Assembly (NCBI RefSeq): GCF_004283755.1
Contig: NZ_SHMH01000001.1
Span: forward strand, 124,001 to 188,000
Source: Pseudoxanthomonas winnipegensis
Lineage (GTDB): Bacteria > Pseudomonadota > Gammaproteobacteria > Xanthomonadales > Xanthomonadaceae
Length of the DNA: 64,000 nucleotides
Reading direction: 5' to 3'
Shown: positions 1 through 12,455 of the stretch, piece after piece
Position numbering within the stretch: position 1 is the stretch's first letter
How the letters are laid out: each line of letters opens with the position of its first letter
Notes under the pieces: generated by a model
Seen by the model: the letters and a program-made list of their open reading frames with translations, nothing else
Database searches by the model: none
What the model was told of the DNA's origin: nothing
Program-made: the position numbers and the translations under genes

Positions 1-885
1 CGCATCCGCCTGGGCAGCACGCTGCTGTACTCGACCAGCCAGTCGGTGGACACCTTGTGCGGACGCACCGCCGGCTGCGTGCCCAACCCCAACCTGCCCG
101 ACCCGGCCGACACCAACCGCGACGGTCGCCCCGACGATGCCTACAACCAGACGCTCGGCGCCGCGCTGGTCGCGGGCGGCTTCATCTCCAACGGCAGCGA
201 TCCCACCGCGCCGGGCGGCAGCATGGACGCCACCGCGCGCGCCAACATCGGCCTGAACTTCTTCACCAACGCCATGGACACCAAGACGACCGGCGTGGAC
301 TGGGTGACGACCTACAGCATCGCCTTCGACTGGGCCGCGATCGACTGGACCCTGGCGGCCAACTACAACAAGACCGAAGTCACCCGCGTCGGCAACGCGC
401 CCGCCGACCTCGGCGGACGCGCGCTGCTGACCGATGCCGACGTCGCCACCATCCAGTACAACAGCCCGAAGTACCGGGTCAACCTGGGTGCGAACATCCG
501 CTTCGGCGAGCGCCTGGCCCTGAACATCCGCGAGAACGTCTACGGCCCGCAGTACACGCTGGGCACCACCAGCGCGTATGCCGCGTTCCCGCAGATCATG
601 AACACGCTGGATCTGACCACCATCAACGGGGTGACCTACTACAAGGCCAAGATCGGCACGCTCTACACCACCAACATCGAACTGGCCTACACCCTCGATC
701 AGCGCCTGCGTTTTAGCATCGGCGCCGACAACCTGTTCAACGCCTACCCGGACAAGACGCCCGCGGCGATCCGCCAGTACAACATCGAGCGTTATGCCAC
801 CACCGGCGCGCGCGACTACCTGCTCGGCAGTCCGCTGGGCTTCTTCGGCACGCGCTGGTTCGCCAAGGTGTCCTACACATGGTGA
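1..885 (+). CDS. TonB-dependent receptor, C-terminal part (5' end outside window)
   Basis: The frame is open from the first base and ends at TGA 883-885, giving the last 294 residues of an outer-membrane beta-barrel. Alternating aromatic and polar strands, a TonB-receptor-like segment (FSIGADNLFNAYPDK near residue 238) and the terminal aromatic residue (ending KVSYTW) are typical of TonB-dependent receptors, which import ligands with energy from TonB-ExbBD. The plug domain and TonB box lie upstream and cannot be seen, so the substrate is unknown. The ATG of the following cytochrome overlaps the end of this gene, which points to one operon with the cytochrome and the flavoenzyme. Confidence 0.85.
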   Translation, partial: RIRLGSTLLYSTSQSVDTLCGRTAGCVPNPNLPDPADTNRDGRPDDAYNQTLGAALVAGGFISNGSDPTAPGGSMDATARANIGLNFFTNAMDTKTTGVDWVTTYSIAFDWAAIDWTLAANYNKTEVTRVGNAPADLGGRALLTDADVATIQYNSPKYRVNLGANIRFGERLALNIRENVYGPQYTLGTTSAYAAFPQIMNTLDLTTINGVTYYKAKIGTLYTTNIELAYTLDQRLRFSIGADNLFNAYPDKTPAAIRQYNIERYATTGARDYLLGSPLGFFGTRWFAKVSYTW

Positions 886-1394
886 GCGACCGGGCCGGCG
901 TCCGCGCATCGGCCACGGCGTCCCCGCCTTCGGGCGGGGGCGCCGGCGCGCAGACGCCTTCTTCCAGTTCCAGGTCCGCTCGCCATCGCATGCCTGGCGT
1001 GTTGGCCTTCCTGCTGCTCGCTTCGCCGGCCGTGGGCGCAAGCGGGCAGGCGGCGGACGCGGTGCCTTTCACCGCGCAGCAGAGCGCACAGGGCGCACGC
1101 GTCTACGCCCAGCACTGCGCCGCCTGCCATGGCCAGCAGCTGGAAGGCTTCTCCGGGCCGGTGCTGGCCGGCCCGGCGTTCTACGGCCGCGACATGGGCG
1201 TGCCGCTGCATGCGACCTTCCAGTACATGGCCCGGGAAATGCCGGTCGGCCGCCCCGGCTCGCTGCGTCGCGAGGACTACGCCGCGCTGATGGCCCTGAT
1301 CCTGGAGAAGAACGGCTACCCCGCCGGTGACGTTGCGCTGGACTACGACACCGCCCTGCACGCCGACGCCCCGCTCTACTTCCATCGCCCCTGA
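879..1394 (+). CDS. Exported monoheme c-type cytochrome
   Basis: The 171-residue product carries one heme-binding CAACH motif (residues 80-84) and a likely axial methionine in an MPVGRPG segment (Met121). These are hallmarks of a class I cytochrome c acting in the periplasm. A hydrophobic export segment (about residues 38-55) follows a basic stretch RSARHR. The first ATG (879) overlaps the stop of the preceding receptor gene and would give an unusually long n-region; an internal ATG at 990 is an alternative start. The gene lies between a TonB receptor and a Tat-exported flavin oxidase, so a role as electron acceptor for that oxidase is a reasonable inference, not shown directly. Confidence 0.82.
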   Translation: MVSDRAGVRASATASPPSGGGAGAQTPSSSSRSARHRMPGVLAFLLLASPAVGASGQAADAVPFTAQQSAQGARVYAQHCAACHGQQLEGFSGPVLAGPAFYGRDMGVPLHATFQYMAREMPVGRPGSLRREDYAALMALILEKNGYPAGDVALDYDTALHADAPLYFHRP

Positions 1395-1464: not shown

Positions 1465-2700
1465 ATGCAACGACGAGACTTCATGATTGGCGCGGGGGCC
1501 GCGACGCTGGCCACGCTCGGCGCGGCCGCACCGCCGGCTACTGCGGGAACGGCGACCGCACAGGCCGCGCCGCCCGGAGGGGCCTTGGCCGACCCGCTCG
1601 GCGCGCGCACGCCGCCGCCGGCGTTCGTCCCCACCTCCGGCACCATCGCACCCGTGCGTGCGCGCACCGACCGCATCGCGCGCATCACCGTCTGCACGCG
1701 CCCGTTCCGGGCGCAAGGCCCGCGCATCGAGCGCGAGAAGATCGCCGGCAGGGAGGTCATCCACAACTACGGGCACGGCGGCAGCGGCTGGTCGCTGTCC
1801 TGGGGCTCGGGCCTGGCGGCCGCGGCCGAGGTGCGCAGCACCGGCGTGCGCCAGGCCGCCGTCGTGGGCTGCGGCGTGATCGGCCTGACCACCGCCGTCG
1901 TCCTGCAGCGCCAAGGCATCAAGACCCGCATCTACACCCGCGAACGCGCCCCGGACGTGCGCTCGTTCAACGCCACCGGCCTGTGGACGCCGGACTCGCG
2001 CGTGGGCACCGTGGAGCAGGCCGACGGCGCGTTGTGGGAGGAGTTGTGCCGCAACTCCTTCCGCATGTTCCAGGCGATCATGGGCCTGCCCGGCAACCCG
2101 GTCGAATGGATCGAGTCCTACGCGCTCTCGGACATCCCCTTCGACCAGGCGCGCAGCGAGCATCTGGCCCAGGCGGCCGGCAATGCGGTCCACTTCGCCA
2201 GCTTCGCCGACCGCGTGCGCGACCTGACACCGGCGTCGGAGGATGTCCCGGCGGGCAGCCATCCGTTCCCGGCGCGCTATGTGCGGCGCGCCTCGACGAT
2301 GATGTTCAACATCCCGGCCTACATGAACTGGCTGGAGCACGAATTCCTGCTCAACGGCGGCGCCATCGATTTCATCGACCTGCGCACGCCGAAGGACTTC
2401 GGCCTGATCCGCGAGAAGACCATCGTCAATGCCACCGGCTACGGCGCGCGTGCACTGATGGGCGACGAGACGCTGGTCCCCGTGCGCGGCCAGATCGCGC
2501 ATCTGGTGCCGCAGCCGGAGGTCGATTACGCGCTGCGCGTCGAAGGCGTAAGCATGGTCCCCCGCCGCGACGGCCTGCTGGTGCAGGCCATCGGCGATGA
2601 GATGGACGGCTACAACAACCCCTCGGTCGTGCCCAACCGCAAGGAGTCTGAGGCCGCCGTGCTCAAGCTGGCCGCGCTTTGCGAGCGCTTCACCCGGTAA
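1465..2700 (+). CDS. Tat-exported D-amino-acid-oxidase-like FAD enzyme, circularly permuted
   Basis: The 411-residue product begins with a twin-arginine type signal (MQRRDFM, then a hydrophobic Ala-rich stretch), so it is probably exported folded with its FAD. The start at 1465 is chosen over 1441 because GAGGA at 1452-1456 is spaced 8 nt from it. The dinucleotide-binding motif VVGCGVIG lies at residues 133-140. VNATG (about 321), VPVRGQ (about 338) and MVPRRDG (about 364) match the middle of D-amino acid oxidases. The family's C-terminal hallmark, a CTRPFR...RIERE segment followed by IHNYGHGG, sits at residues 77-106, before the FAD motif, instead of at the end. The chain stops soon after the RRDG region. 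Arg79 aligns with the substrate-carboxylate arginine of the family. The substrate is unknown; the neighbouring cytochrome c may take the electrons. Confidence 0.85.
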   Translation: MQRRDFMIGAGAATLATLGAAAPPATAGTATAQAAPPGGALADPLGARTPPPAFVPTSGTIAPVRARTDRIARITVCTRPFRAQGPRIEREKIAGREVIHNYGHGGSGWSLSWGSGLAAAAEVRSTGVRQAAVVGCGVIGLTTAVVLQRQGIKTRIYTRERAPDVRSFNATGLWTPDSRVGTVEQADGALWEELCRNSFRMFQAIMGLPGNPVEWIESYALSDIPFDQARSEHLAQAAGNAVHFASFADRVRDLTPASEDVPAGSHPFPARYVRRASTMMFNIPAYMNWLEHEFLLNGGAIDFIDLRTPKDFGLIREKTIVNATGYGARALMGDETLVPVRGQIAHLVPQPEVDYALRVEGVSMVPRRDGLLVQAIGDEMDGYNNPSVVPNRKESEAAVLKLAALCERFTR

Positions 2701-4891: not shown

Positions 4892-5073
4892 TCACGCAGG
4901 CCGACGTCACGATCTCGCAGGCATCCAGCGGATGGCAGCGCGAAATCGGCATGGACGGCGGCTCCTGGTGGCGCCGCCTCGATTGTGCGGCGCGGAATTT
5001 TAGCACGCGCGCCCGGCGCGGCCGCGTTCGACCAATGGTCTACTTGCGGACGCACCGGGGGCGGGGGCCGTGT

Positions 5074-5568
5074 TCAGGCAGCCAGGAGCTTGTTCCATTC
5101 GGCCACGCGGTCGGCCTTGGCGGCCAGGACGGCGTCGGCGTCGCCCTCGATCACCACCGAGTCGATGGTGTCGCCCTGCTTGACCGCATCGACGGCCTCC
5201 AGGCCCGAGACGACCTTGCCGAACACGGTGTGCTTGCCGTCCAGCCACGGGGTGGCCACGTGGGTGATGAAGAACTGGCTGCCGTTGGTGTTGGGGCCGG
5301 CGTTGGCCATGGACAGCACGCCGCGCTCGTGGCGCACGCCGTTGTTGGTCTCGTCCTCGAAACGGTAGCCCGGGCCGCCGCGGCCGGAGCCTTCCGGGCA
5401 GCCGCCCTGGATCATGAAGTCCGGGATGACGCGGTGGAAGTTCAGCCCGTCGTAGAAGCCGCGCTTGGCCAGGTTGACGAAATTGGCCACGGTCAGCGGC
5501 GCCTTGTCCGGGTACAGCTCGACCTGGATCGGGCCGCGGGAGGTGTTGAAGGTGGCGGTGAGGGACAT
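5074..5568 (-). CDS. ppiB: Cytoplasmic peptidyl-prolyl cis-trans isomerase B (cyclophilin)
   Basis: The 164-residue protein has the cyclophilin core: [13 protein letters not shown] (about residues 48-60), [12 protein letters not shown], and SQFFIT (about 104). It catalyses cis-trans isomerisation of proline peptide bonds. No signal peptide is present, so the cytoplasmic PpiB form is likely. The start at 5568 is supported by AGGAGTT just upstream; longer in-frame starts lack this. It is transcribed away from typA, with which it shares a 101-nt divergent promoter region. Confidence 0.94.
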
Positions 5569-5616
5569 CGTGGAACTCCTTTGGAGCAGGCAGCCCGGTC
5601 GTGGGCGGTAACCGGC

Positions 5617-5622
5617 TATAAT
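5617..5622 (+). promoter_or_regulatory. Probable -10 box for typA
   Basis: A perfect TATAAT lies 47 nt upstream of the typA ATG in the short region between divergent ppiB and typA. No good TTGACA-like -35 is visible 16-18 nt upstream, so only the -10 is called. Confidence 0.5.
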
Positions 5623-5669
5623 ACGCGCTTCCCTCCACACCTCTGCGCGCACCGCCGCGCCCGTGCCGC

Positions 5670-7499
<1,830 letters not shown>

Positions 7500-7577
7500 G
7501 GCGGTCTGTGCAAGCTGGCGCGGGTGGCGGCCCACGGGTCGCCGCCCGCGCACCAACCGGCGTATCCTTCCGGCCCG

Positions 7578-8054
7578 ATGCCTCATACCCAACGTCCCTA
7601 CGATCCGGATCCGCACGCGCATCCGGGCCTGCATGCGCTGGCGTTGTTCGAACTGGCCAAGGGTCTGCTGGCCCTGATCGCCGCGGCCAGCCTGGAAGTC
7701 CTCGGGCCCGACCCGATCCGGCGCGCGGTGTACTGGCTGATCGAGCGCTTCCATCTGGACCCGGCGCACGGCGCCCTGCCCTCGCTGCTCAAGCAGATCG
7801 ACCCCAAGGCGGTACACCTGGCCGTGGCCGTGGTGGCCATCTATGCGCTCTGGCGGCTGGTGGAATCCTGGGGCCTGTGGCGGGCCAAGGCCTGGGCCTC
7901 GTGGCTGGGCTGCGTGGGCACGGCGGTCTACCTGCCCTTCGACATGTACGCGCTGGTCCGGCACCCGGGCTGGCATACGGCCGTGGTGGTGCTGATCAAC
8001 GTGATCGTGGTGGCCGTGCTGGCCCGCGACCTGATCCGCCGCCGGCGCCACTGA
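7578..8054 (+). CDS. DUF2127-type integral membrane protein
   Basis: The 158-residue product has about four hydrophobic helices (roughly residues 19-42, 71-90, 97-117 and 128-147), with charged loops and a terminal RRRRH. The arrangement, including a conserved LALFELAKGLLAL first helix, resembles the DUF2127 family of small membrane proteins of unknown function. The start at 7578 (MPHTQRP) was chosen because the extended upstream reading has no hydrophobic or conserved content. It lies 78 nt after typA on the same strand. Confidence 0.72.
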   Translation: MPHTQRPYDPDPHAHPGLHALALFELAKGLLALIAAASLEVLGPDPIRRAVYWLIERFHLDPAHGALPSLLKQIDPKAVHLAVAVVAIYALWRLVESWGLWRAKAWASWLGCVGTAVYLPFDMYALVRHPGWHTAVVVLINVIVVAVLARDLIRRRRH

Positions 8055-8118
8055 GCCGCTTGCGGCCCCCGCGCCGCTGCGTTTAGCCTGCGACGATCCG
8101 CATGAGGGGATCGAACCG

Positions 8119-9717
8119 ATGCACGCCTTCAGGCTTGCACTGACGCTGTCGTGCCTGGCCGCGCTGGCCGGCTGCACCGCCCCGGCGTCCGCGCCGCCCA
8201 AGACCGCCGCGCCCGCCCAGTTCCGCTATGCCGAGCTGACCATCGCCCAGTTGCAGGAGCAGATGCAGCGCGGCGCGCTGGACAGCCGCACCCTGACCCG
8301 CGCCTACCTGGACCGCATCGCCCAGGTCGATCGCGCCGGGCCGCACCTCAATGCCGTGATCCAGCTCAATCCCGAGGCGATGACAGAGGCGGCGCTGCGC
8401 GACCGCGAGCGCGCCGGCGGCACCGTGCGCGGGCCGCTGCAGGGCATCCCGATCCTGCTCAAGGACAACATCGACGCCACGCCGATGGCCACCACCGCCG
8501 GCTCGCTGGCGCTGCGCGATTTCCATCCCAAGGCCGACGCCTTCCTGGTCAAGCGCCTGCGCGAGGCCGGCGCGGTGATCCTGGGCAAGACCAACCTCTC
8601 GGAGTGGGCCAACTTCCGCTCCAGCGACTCGATCTCCGGCTGGAGCGCGGTCGGCGGCCAGACCCATAACCCCTATGTGCTGGACCGCAACCCCTGCGGG
8701 TCCAGCGCCGGCAGCGGCGTGGCCGCCTCGGCCAATCTGGCCGCGGCCACGGTCGGCACCGAGACCGACGGCAGCATCATCTGCCCGGCGGCGGTCAACG
8801 GCGCGGTGGGGCTGAAGCCCACCGTCGGCCTGGTCAGCCGCGACGGCATCGTGCCGATCTCCTGGAGCCAGGACACCGCCGGGCCGATCACCCGCACTGT
8901 GGCCGATGCGGCCATCCTGCTGGCGGCGATGGCCGGTCGCGACAGCGCCGATGCCAGCACCGGATACGCCACACTCAATGCCCCGCTGGACTACGTCTCG
9001 CGCCTGCGCCCCGGCGCGCTCAAGGGCGCACGCATCGGCGTGGTCCGCAGCAGCTTCAAGTTCGGCCCCGACGTGGCCAAGGCGATGGAAGGCGCGGTCG
9101 CGACCCTGCGCGCGGCGGGCGCGACCGTGGTCGACGCCGAGATCCCCACCGCCGGCCAGTGGGACCAGGACGAACTGCTGGTGCTCAAGACCGAGTTCAA
9201 GAACGGGCTGGCGCGCTATCTCACCAGCAAGGGCGCGCCGGTGGACTCGCTGCAGCAGCTGATCGGCTTCAACCAGCAGCATGCGCGCGAGGAGCTGGCG
9301 CTGTTCGGGCAGGACCTGTTCGAAGAGTCCGCGGCGATGGGCGGCCTGAACGACCCGGCCTACATCCAGGCCCGTTCGCGCATCAAGCGGCTGGCCGGCC
9401 CGGAAGGCATCGATGCGGCGCTCAAGGCGCAGCACCTGGACGCCCTGGTCGCCGCGGCGACGGGCCCGGCCTGGCGCACCGACCCGGCGTTCAAGGATCC
9501 CTTCCCCGGCGCCGGCTACGGCGCGGCGGCGGTGGCCGGCTATCCCAGCCTGACCATCCCGATGGGCGACAGCCGCGGGCTGCCGCTGGGCCTGCTGTTC
9601 ATGGGCACCGCCTGGAGCGAGGCAAAGCTGATCGGGCTGGGCTACGACTACGAGCAGCGCACCCAGGCGCGCGTCCCGCCCGCGTATCGCGCCACGCTGG
9701 AACCGCGCACGCCCTGA
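8119..9717 (+). CDS. Lipoprotein amidase of the amidase-signature family
   Basis: The 532-residue product starts with a lipoprotein signal (lipobox LAGC, Cys19), so it is likely anchored to the periplasmic side of a membrane. The amidase-signature Ser-Ser-Lys triad is visible: Lys115 in ILLKDNID, Ser195/196 in GSSAGSG and Ser219 in TETDGSI. Family members hydrolyse amide bonds in varied substrates; the natural substrate here is unknown. It is not GatA: there are no gatB/gatC neighbours and it carries a lipoprotein signal. It converges on the MscS-like gene with only 19 nt between stops. Confidence 0.9.
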
Positions 9718-9736
9718 GTGTCGCGCGCCCGGCGGA

Positions 9737-10900
9737 TCAGTGCGACGGCGGTGGCACCGGGCCAGGCGACTCTGGCGAAACCGGCGGCGGGCCGTCCTCG
9801 GCGCCGGGCGAGGAGGTCTGGCGCGCGCTGGGCAACACCTGCGGCGTGTCGGGCGGGGTCTGTTCGCGGGTGAGCATGTTGCGCTGACGCGGCAGCGCGT
9901 CGGGATACTCGCGCGCCAGGTAGTCCAGCACGCGCTCGCGCACCACGCAGCGCAGGTCGAAGGCATCGCCGGAACTGCGCGCGCTGACCAGCAGGCGCAC
10001 CTGCATGGCGGTCTCGGAGGTCTCGGTGACCTGGGCGATGCAGACCCGGCCGTCCCAGCGCGGATCCTCGCGGCACACGCGTTCGGTCTCGGCGCGCACG
10101 GCGGCCATCGGGGTGCGGTAGTCCAGCCACAGGAATACCGTGCCGAGCATGTCGGCGCTGCGCCGCGTCCAGTTCTGGAACGGATTCTCGATGAACCAGG
10201 TCAGCGGCACCACCATGCGGCGCTGATCCCAGATGTGCACCACCACGAAGGAACTGGTGATCTCCTCGATGCGGCCCCATTCGCCCTCGACGATGACCAC
10301 GTCGTCCAGGCGGATCGGCTGGGTCAGCGCGATCTGCAAGCCGGCGATCAGGTTGCCGAACACCGGCTTGGCCGCGATGCCCGCCACCAGCCCGAGGATG
10401 CCGGCCGAGGCCAGCAGCGTGCGACCGAGCTGACGCACCTCGTCGAACTGCAGCAGCACCACCGAGGCGCCGACCAGGATCACCGCGCCGGAGGCCACGC
10501 GCCCCAGCACGCGCGCCTGGGTATGGATGGTGCGCGCATGCAGGTTGTCGGCCACGTCGATGCGGTTGTCGCGCAGGATCGCCGCCACGATGCCGGCCAC
10601 TACGCGCACCAGCAGCCAGGTCACGCAGGCGACGATGCCGATATGCAGCAGTTGCTTGACCAGCTGCAGCTGCGCGTCCTTGAGCGGTGTGGCCTCGAGC
10701 CCGGCGCGCAGAAAGATCAGCGGCAGCACAAAGGCCAGCGGCAGGCTGAGGATGCGGGTGATGCGTGCGCGCCGGAAATCCTTGCCGCGCGAGCGCCGCT
10801 CCAGCCAGGCGAACAATCCCCAGGCGAGCACGCCCAGCGCCAGGGAAATTCCCAGCGGGATCACGTAGTCGCGCGCGGTCGTCCAGTGCAGGTCAGCCAT
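9737..10900 (-). CDS. MscS-family mechanosensitive channel
   Basis: The 387-residue protein has about five N-terminal transmembrane helices (first at about residues 13-33), then the MscS core: a glycine/alanine-rich pore helix (ASAGILGLVAGIAAKPVFGN, about 163-182) followed by the beta domain (IRLDDVVIVEG, WGRIEEI). Such channels open under membrane tension and release solutes during hypo-osmotic shock. The C-terminal tail is proline-rich and probably disordered. ATG 10900 is preferred; a GTG at 10906 is also possible. The 68-bp palindrome upstream separates it from the DAHP synthase gene. Confidence 0.9.
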   Translation of the reverse strand: MADLHWTTARDYVIPLGISLALGVLAWGLFAWLERRSRGKDFRRARITRILSLPLAFVLPLIFLRAGLEATPLKDAQLQLVKQLLHIGIVACVTWLLVRVVAGIVAAILRDNRIDVADNLHARTIHTQARVLGRVASGAVILVGASVVLLQFDEVRQLGRTLLASAGILGLVAGIAAKPVFGNLIAGLQIALTQPIRLDDVVIVEGEWGRIEEITSSFVVVHIWDQRRMVVPLTWFIENPFQNWTRRSADMLGTVFLWLDYRTPMAAVRAETERVCREDPRWDGRVCIAQVTETSETAMQVRLLVSARSSGDAFDLRCVVRERVLDYLAREYPDALPRQRNMLTREQTPPDTPQVLPSARQTSSPGAEDGPPPVSPESPGPVPPPSH

Positions 10901-10986
10901 CCCCACCGGAGACTGCCAAAACGCGCGTCGAGGGCATGTGGGCGCGCGTCTCGAACGACTGGGCGCATCACGCCTTAGAAGGGCTT

Positions 10987-11054
10987 GTGGGAGCCGCCAT
11001 GGCGGCGATGAGGCTTTCCCGGGAAGGCCTCATCGCTGCCACGGCGGCTCCCAC
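10987..11054. repeat. 68-bp near-perfect intergenic palindrome (REP/REPIN-like)
   Basis: Two 34-nt arms beginning GTGGGAGCCGCC pair with about three mismatches around a central TTCCCGGGAA. The unit resembles the GTGGGAGC...GCGATGAGG palindromes scattered through Xanthomonadaceae and Pseudomonas genomes. It fills most of the gap between the DAHP synthase stop and the MscS start, and could fold into a long RNA hairpin. Confidence 0.8.
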
Positions 11055-11063
11055 CGAAGACCT

Positions 11064-12455
11064 CTAGCCCGCCGTCGCCTGCAGCTGCCGCTGCTTGCGC
11101 ACGATCGACATGGCGATCTCCAGCGACTGCTCATAGTTCAGGCGCGGATCGACGGTCGAGCGGTAGGCGCGCTCCAGGTCCACATCGGTCAGCTCGCGCG
11201 CGCCGCCGGTGCATTCGGTGACGTCCTCGCCGGTCAGCTCCAGGTGCACGCCGCCCAGGCGCGTGCCGACCGCGGCATGGATGTCGAAGGCCTGCTCGAC
11301 CTCGCCGCGCACGTTGTCGAAGCGGCGCGTCTTGAAGCCGTTGCTGGTCGACTCGGTATTGCCATGCATCGCATCGCACACCCACAGCACGCGCCGGCCG
11401 TCGCGCTTGACCGCCTCCAGCAGCGGTGGCAGCTTCTCGGCGATCTGCGCCGCGCCCATGCGATGGATGAAGGTCAGCCGGCCCGGCTCGTCGTCCGGAT
11501 TGAGGATGTCCATCAGCGCCAGCAACTGATCGGGCTTCACCGACGGGCCGACCTTCACCGCGATCGGATTGTGCACGCCGCGCAGATATTCCACGTGCGC
11601 GCCATCGACCGCCGCGGTGCGCATGCCGATCCAGGGATAGTGCGTGGACAGGTTGAACCAGCCGTGCTGACGCGGGACCTCGCGGGTCAGCGCCTGCTCG
11701 TAGGGCAGCAGCAGCGCTTCGTGCGAGGTGTAGAAATCGATGCGGTTGAGGTTGTGCACCTCGGCGCCGGCCAGGGTTTCCATGAAGCGCACCGCGCCGC
11801 CGATGTCGGCCACCATCTGCTGGTATTCGTTGGCCAGCGGCGAGTAGCCGACCCAGCTGAGGTTCCAGTACTCGGGATGGTGCAGGTCGGCGAAGCCGCC
11901 GTCGATCAGCGCCCGCACGAAGTTCATCGTCATGGCCGAGCGCGAATGCGCGCGGATCATGCGCTGCGGATCGGGAATGCGCGCCTGCGCGGTGAACTCG
12001 GGCCCATTGACCAGGTCGCCGCGATAGCTCGGCAGGGTGATCTCGCCGCGGGTCTCCATGTCGGTCGAACGCGGCTTGGCGTACTGCCCGGCGAAGCGCC
12101 CGACGCGCACCACCGGCAGCTGCAACCCGTGCACCAGCACCAGGCTCATCTGCAGCAGCACCTTCAGCCGGTTGGAGATCAGCCCGGACTCGCAGTCGGA
12201 GAAGCTCTCGGCGCAGTCGCCGCCCTGCAGCACGAAGCGCTTGCCTTCCTGTGCCTCGGCCAGCTGCTTCTTCAGCGCGAAGATCTCCCATGAGGTCACC
12301 AGCGGCGGCAACCGGCCGAGCTCCTCGACCGCCCGGTCCAGCGCCTCGGCGTCGGGATAGGTCGGCAGCTGCATCGCCGGGCGCGCGCGCCAGCTGTCGG
12401 GGCGCCAGTCGCCGGAGGCGGCAGGAAAGGGAATGGCGGGGGCTGCGGCGGACAT
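11064..12455 (-). CDS. Class II 3-deoxy-7-phosphoheptulonate (DAHP) synthase
   Basis: The 463-residue enzyme condenses phosphoenolpyruvate and erythrose 4-phosphate, the first step of the shikimate pathway. Class II (plant/Mycobacterium-like) membership shows in QGGDCAESF (about residues 75-83), KPRSTDMETRGE (about 129-140) and CDAMHGNT (about 348-355). It is unrelated in length and motifs to the E. coli AroFGH class. CAGGAG before ATG 12455 supports this start over an upstream in-frame ATG. It stands alone, divergent from a TonB receptor gene. Confidence 0.95.
   Translation of the reverse strand: MSAAAPAIPFPAASGDWRPDSWRARPAMQLPTYPDAEALDRAVEELGRLPPLVTSWEIFALKKQLAEAQEGKRFVLQGGDCAESFSDCESGLISNRLKVLLQMSLVLVHGLQLPVVRVGRFAGQYAKPRSTDMETRGEITLPSYRGDLVNGPEFTAQARIPDPQRMIRAHSRSAMTMNFVRALIDGGFADLHHPEYWNLSWVGYSPLANEYQQMVADIGGAVRFMETLAGAEVHNLNRIDFYTSHEALLLPYEQALTREVPRQHGWFNLSTHYPWIGMRTAAVDGAHVEYLRGVHNPIAVKVGPSVKPDQLLALMDILNPDDEPGRLTFIHRMGAAQIAEKLPPLLEAVKRDGRRVLWVCDAMHGNTESTSNGFKTRRFDNVRGEVEQAFDIHAAVGTRLGGVHLELTGEDVTECTGGARELTDVDLERAYRSTVDPRLNYEQSLEIAMSIVRKQRQLQATAG

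Follow-up and report, generated by a model that had tools for sequence, protein, structure and literature searches.

The open reading frame at positions 1465 to 2700 of the window, by which we mean the whole 64,000-nucleotide stretch of Pseudoxanthomonas winnipegensis DNA analysed here, encodes a 411-residue protein (P0001) in which the landmarks of a D-amino acid oxidase (DAAO) occur in the wrong order. This raises the questions of whether P0001 is a genuine circular permutant, whether it is a lone case, and what reaction it might catalyze. The features under discussion, all on the forward strand, are as follows.

1465..2700: gene for P0001 (411 aa), a circularly permuted DAAO-family flavoprotein, by its open reading frame, Pfam and PDB matches and rotation scan
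1465..1566: probable Tat (twin-arginine) leader, ending near residue 34 as judged by eye
1687..1839: residues 75-125, an N-terminal block with homology to the C-terminus of ordinary DAAOs (human residues ~279-327 and a few more)
1693..1695: C77, at the position of human DAAO G281; proposed covalent FAD site; 30 of the 56 permuted rows have Cys here
1699..1701: R79, corresponding to R283 of human DAAO; Arg in all 56 permuted and all 10 ordinary rows
1762..1782: HNYGHGG, the C-terminal signature of DAAOs, here near the N-terminus
1825..1851: junction of the former C-terminal helix with the first Rossmann strand, residues 121-129
1867..1884: GCGVIG at residues 135-140, the dinucleotide-binding motif
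1975..1977: T171, at human A49; taken as the oxygen-gate residue G52 of R. gracilis DAAO through a common WTP motif
2551..2553: S363, aligned with human DAAO Tyr228

P0001 begins MQRRDFMIGAGAATLATLGA and carries CTRPFR at residues 77-82, HNYGHGG at 100-106 and VVGCGVIG at 133-140. In human DAAO R283 is the arginine that binds the substrate carboxylate, and the HNYGHGG signature contacts the flavin. All of the elements expected of the family, conventionally an N-terminal GxGxxG, a catalytic domain and a C-terminal arginine strand with HNYGHGG, are thus present in rotated order; the carboxylate arginine (R79) and HxYGHGGxG (residues 100-108) are intact, and the tyrosine at human Y228 is replaced by serine. 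The best-matching stretch to the Pfam DAO model (PF01266) is residues 131-394. In phmmer searches of the PDB, residues 71-125 align to positions 320-374 of 7ct4 (388 residues in all) and residues 75-123 to positions 283-334 of 6rkf (350 in all), while residues 129-182 and 268-358 align to 6rkf positions 13-68 and 136-225. Each part is recognized separately, with best E-values of 2.8e-10 for the N-terminal block by itself (69 aa) and 8.6e-10 for the core by itself, and these values together with the rotation scan described below rule out a chance order of motifs. The first-pass annotation, which had placed the substrate-arginine strand and HNYGHGG block ahead of the FAD motif with no duplicate left behind, was correct on both counts: the residues are as claimed and the PDB alignments agree, P0001 contains no second copy of HNYGHGG, and its C-terminus aligns to approximately human DAAO residue 270.

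For the rotation scan the leader was removed and the cut point was moved at every second residue, with five permuted proteins compared with ten of ordinary order. The optimum for P0001 lies at a cut between residues 116 and 132 against all ten ordinary DAAOs, and its summed score rises from 1530 in the native order to 2226 when rotated, as compared with a mean of 362 and a highest value of 400 for 20 shuffles. All 50 scan maxima, for P0001 and four relatives, lie after the HNYGHGG segment and ahead of the Rossmann motif, and an ordinary Streptomyces DAAO used as a control scores best unrotated. When the rotated copy of P0001 is searched, two of the three pieces aligned to 6rkf (27.3 and 19.4 bits) fuse into one of 49.8 bits and the first (11 bits) remains separate. 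The overall PDB E-value is hardly better after rotation (6.4e-16 to 1.9e-16 for 6rkf), and the human DAAO match stays in three separate pieces. By the rotated alignment and the scan, homology to DAAOs runs along the chain irrespective of order.

The junction is also of the size expected. The distance from HxYGHG to GxGxxG is 35 residues in P0001, and joining the ends of ordinary DAAOs would give 32, 33, 37, 38, 38, 43, 47, 61 and 65 residues for the nine of the ten proteins in which it was computable, three of them unannotated genes whose start codons were chosen by hand. Because six of these nine lie at 32-43, the P0001 spacing fits end joining without an added linker. By its sequence, P0001 has the old termini joined, new termini elsewhere and no duplicated segment, and it is almost certainly a true circular permutant of a DAAO.

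Relatives with the same arrangement are numerous. The window's genome has one copy of the gene, and five of 36 other genomes of the genus contain a strong match, with the block first in all of them, one (G006) having the gene split over two frames. A survey of 398 genomes of the phylum, assumed to be Pseudomonadota, with a profile of the permuted proteins (E of 1e-20 or better) matched 20, the window's included, and the order is rotated in all of the 19 others (19/397); in one family (f55), which the hslVU neighbourhood described below would liken to the sphingomonads, 29 of 119 genomes match. When an ordinary Streptomyces DAAO was used as the query against 299 genomes of the phylum, all seven matches at E 1e-12 were at permuted-protein sites already found. 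Within the phylum, Burkholderia glumae and Vibrio carry members of ordinary order on plasmids, and elsewhere such members were seen in Streptomyces, Streptantibioticus, Tsukamurella and Nocardia. The rotated order is found in an Oxalobacteraceae MAG, in plasmid records of Niveispirillum, Kozakia, Rhizobium, Bradyrhizobium and Nonomuraea, which span two phyla, on two distinct kinds of viral contig, and in a frameshifted Mesorhizobium gene (L084).

We listed 63 loci (58 distinct places), all of them fetched for likeness to the permuted profile, and in 61 listings a single open reading frame has the rotated order with a spacing of 34-36 (55 listings, 50 distinct) or 39 (six listings). The two exceptions are L090, which is permuted with the variant RHYGHGG, and L084, which is frameshifted inside GxGxxG. 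We considered whether the L084 gene is naturally divided in two at the junction; its first frame stops inside GxGxxG, and a frameshift is likelier. The search for the same motif order that the first-pass annotation had proposed therefore succeeded repeatedly, and the assembly rearrangement that it had named as a possible refutation is excluded by these independent genomes. Its picture of a single unusual enzyme is correct as to the rotated order and needs amending otherwise, since this is a family rather than a lone case, one branch of which looks exported and another of which mostly lacks a leader.

Several relatives look broken (loci L022, L053, L054, L084, L093 and L095), with two frames (genome G006), internal stops (G269, G191, G546 and G506) or a frameshift (L084), suggesting that the permuted gene may be dispensable.

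A maximum-likelihood tree of 42 rows in the rotated register (32 permuted and 10 ordinary) separates the permuted rows from the ordinary ones at a branch supported at 100/99, and a 66-row tree gives the permuted clade an SH-aLRT of 99, so that the permuted forms do constitute a separate clade, as the first-pass annotation had asked. On this tree one permutation event is enough. The tree is unrooted, and we infer from the presence of the ordinary order in eukaryotes and the wider superfamily that it is ancestral. The window copy is only 45-51% identical to those of its genus mates (L018-L022), which have different neighbourhoods, and it groups with the Oxalobacteraceae MAG (86/75); this pattern suggests horizontal transfer.

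Is the protein exported? Tat leaders were called by eye and with a loose RR pattern, which is present in 53 of the 55 listings with 34-36 spacing (48 of 50 distinct loci) and in one of the six with 39 spacing. We infer from its leader that P0001 is probably a Tat substrate. A fixed tie between permutation and Tat export is not supported, as the 39-spaced branch is permuted and RR is absent from five of its six listings.

The active-site residues divide the family into two subtypes. Three positions, those of human A49, Y228 and G281, covary among the 56 permuted rows: 26 have Gly at 49, Tyr at 228 and Gly at 281 (Ala once), and the other 30, including the window's, have Thr (27), Ser (2) or Asn (1, Kozakia) at 49, no Tyr at 228, and Cys at 281 in 30 of 30, a count that is not independent because the subtype is defined partly by this Cys. 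In the ten ordinary rows position 49 is Ala (6) or Gly (4), position 228 is Tyr (8) or Phe (2), and position 281 is always Gly. The equivalents of R283, Y309, H311, G312, G313 and G315 are kept in all 56 permuted rows, the H307 position is His in 55 and Arg in L090, and position 44 is Arg instead of Thr in 28.

Two of these substitutions bear on the reaction. Human A49 was matched by eye to R. gracilis G52 through the WTP motif, as the gapless HMMER alignment is shifted there. In one study the R. gracilis G52V substitution lowers O2 reactivity more than 100-fold and the reductive half-reaction is not lost (PMC7312611), and another lists G52V among oxygen-insensitive DAAO mutants (PMC9915066). 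The residue at the gate is Thr in the window and Asn in Kozakia, as against Val in the mutant. With serine at the Tyr228 position, the enzyme may no longer handle substrates as an ordinary DAAO does. The name 'oxidase' in the first-pass annotation therefore stands as far as DAAO-family homology goes and is less certain for the window's subtype, which lacks Tyr228 and has Thr at the oxygen gate; overall we lean slightly towards a dehydrogenase. That the substrate is of the amino-acid type is rather probable.

The cysteine at position 281 raises the prospect of a covalent flavin. Sarcosine oxidase is reportedly covalently flavinylated, and we take its C315 to be the residue that carries the FAD. 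In a forced global alignment the Cys of the Cys subtype falls on C315, and with all rows included human G281 does so too; the global alignment changes when only the ordinary rows, or the other permuted subtype, are used, local alignments miss the Cys site, and hhalign gives the match of C77 with C315 a probability below 2%. A human DAAO with covalently attached flavin was reportedly described by Raibekas, Fukui and Massey in 2000, and this is presumably the G281C mutant. That form was engineered, whereas the P0001 cysteine is natural and lies in a permuted chain. Covalent attachment through C77 in the window's subtype is conceivable, with the odds slightly against it. A covalent 8-methyl linkage raises the flavin potential (PMC5082570).

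The neighbourhood offers a candidate electron acceptor. Two genes lie upstream of that for P0001, both on the forward strand.

879..1394: c-type cytochrome (CxxCH) gene, in the same direction as the P0001 gene, scoring above threshold for PF13442 and PF00034
1..885: 3' part of the gene for a TonB-dependent receptor, which starts upstream of the window (985-aa open reading frame at L017:9929-12886)

The cytochrome start is likely the ATG at 990, placed by eye before a signal peptide. Scans of positions 800-2950 yielded no promoter and no terminator. In Kozakia a homologous cytochrome c (35% identical to the window's) is encoded on the opposite side of the permuted gene, with TonB receptor and peptidase-like genes close by, and the loci with either cytochrome next to the gene, the window and Kozakia, both carry the Cys subtype. 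A general pairing with cytochrome c is not upheld: homologues of these two cytochromes, the only ones sought, are absent beside the gene in 32 of 34 loci, a few of which have short flanks, and L057 has a weak match several kb away.

Other branches keep different company. The gene hslV lies within 1.5 kb in 12 of the 50 distinct 34-36-spaced loci, all twelve of the Gly-Tyr-Gly subtype, and both hslV and hslU do in 11; family models confirmed HslV and HslU in L060. In 11 distinct loci (for example L055, L058, L060 and L063, and family f55) the permuted gene, with its export-type leader, sits between hslV and hslU of this protease operon. In the leaderless branch, which is of the other subtype than the window's, a gene for a thiamine pyrophosphate (TPP)-dependent enzyme is directly downstream in Nonomuraea, Rhizobium, Mesorhizobium and Bradyrhizobium, that is in four of the six loci examined (L016, L083, L084 and L085); it does not adjoin the gene in L056, and L062 has one nearby on the other strand with one gene between. 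Two of these enzymes were scanned and their best model is indolepyruvate/phenylpyruvate decarboxylase, well below its cut-off; a decarboxylase-like neighbour fits a 2-oxo-acid product in that branch. In Rhizobium and Bradyrhizobium a berberine-bridge-type FAD oxidase gene is upstream of the permuted gene.

These observations can be assembled into a model. A compact bacterial DAAO gene would have been duplicated head to tail and then trimmed, joining the old C-terminal strand and helix, with the substrate arginine and HNYGHGG, to the old N-terminal Rossmann strand and leaving new termini in a loop near human residues 270-275. Because every segment contributing to the active site is retained, a DAAO fold with a different start is expected. 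The Tat system would export the protein already folded and carrying its flavin, and in the periplasm it would convert a D-amino acid, or an amino acid like it, into the 2-oxo acid by oxidation. In the window's subtype the electron acceptor would be the upstream-encoded c-type cytochrome instead of O2, because the oxygen-gate position is filled by Thr171, and the FAD may be bound covalently to C77. We put the probability that P0001 is a Tat-exported amino-acid dehydrogenase of permuted DAAO fold, delivering electrons to cytochrome c, at roughly 0.6. The fuller account, in which one permutation founded the lineage and one branch became an exported dehydrogenase with Cys-bound FAD, a Thr oxygen gate and a cytochrome c acceptor, is less likely than not.

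The rarity of the cytochrome association (2 of 34 loci) leaves room for P0001 being an ordinary O2-using oxidase of permuted DAAO fold that generates H2O2 in the periplasm, the cytochrome being a coincidental neighbour, particularly as 26 of the 56 permuted rows retain Gly at the gate and Tyr at 228. The window's own subtype has Thr171 and Cys77, however, and both cytochrome-adjacent loci share that Cys, and we regard this explanation as unlikely. Somewhat less unlikely, if still improbable, is recruitment of the fold to another substrate, such as an N-methyl or otherwise substituted amino acid, D-Asp or D-Glu, or a peptide-derived amine. Such a change would accord with the loss of Tyr228, the Arg at human position 44 in half of the rows (28/56) and the Cys at 281, and with two neighbourhoods: that of L013, the Oxalobacteraceae MAG, where the permuted gene is upstream of an arginine succinyltransferase (AST) catabolic cluster (4902-11073), and that of L015, where it lies among S9/S15 peptidase and beta-lactamase-fold genes. 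The carboxylate arginine, invariant in 56 of 56 rows, and the nearly invariant HNYGHGG region argue instead for an alpha-amino acid. Finally, although the broken-looking relatives (G006, G269, G191, G546, G506 and L084) are what one might see if the arrangement were an assembly rearrangement or a pseudogene of an ordinary DAAO, the same order in many independent genomes, the single supported clade and the open frame in the window make this extremely improbable. We thus favour the exported, cytochrome c-linked dehydrogenase.

Among characterized enzymes, D-amino-acid oxidase (EC 1.4.3.3) and D-aspartate oxidase (EC 1.4.3.1), both of PF01266, are closest, having in common with P0001 the GxGxxG motif, the substrate arginine, HNYGHGG and, after rotation, alignability along the chain; P0001 differs in its rotated chain and Tat-like leader, and in having Thr at the G52 position, no Tyr228 and Cys at G281. 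DadA-type D-amino-acid dehydrogenase (NF001933), whose electron acceptor is likewise not O2, and ThiO glycine oxidase (TIGR02352) belong to the same superfamily and are of ordinary order, and P0001 falls far below both cut-offs (39.5 of 250.8 bits for ThiO, 19.2 of 383 for DadA). Monomeric sarcosine oxidase, also of ordinary order, has a Cys in a VC context at an apparently equivalent strand position, as does P0001, and is absent from the 39 PDB sequences that P0001 matches at E up to 1. The portions available of the open-licence literature searched contained no description of a permuted DAAO. The proteins released by Asaia bogorensis include a 'D-amino acid oxidase' (A0A060QKK3), according to PMC12502724, and this could belong to the permuted family.

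Natural circular permutants of cofactor-binding enzymes reveal which chain connections a fold can spare, and this clade makes it possible to compare a well-studied enzyme in its ordinary, permuted-classical and permuted-derived forms. The covarying active-site positions open to direct test, in natural proteins, what makes an amino-acid oxidase a dehydrogenase, and the permuted enzymes may find use as oxygen-insensitive amino-acid sensors. If the fuller account is true, evolution would have made, in a rotated chain, changes like those that have been engineered singly in ordinary DAAOs.
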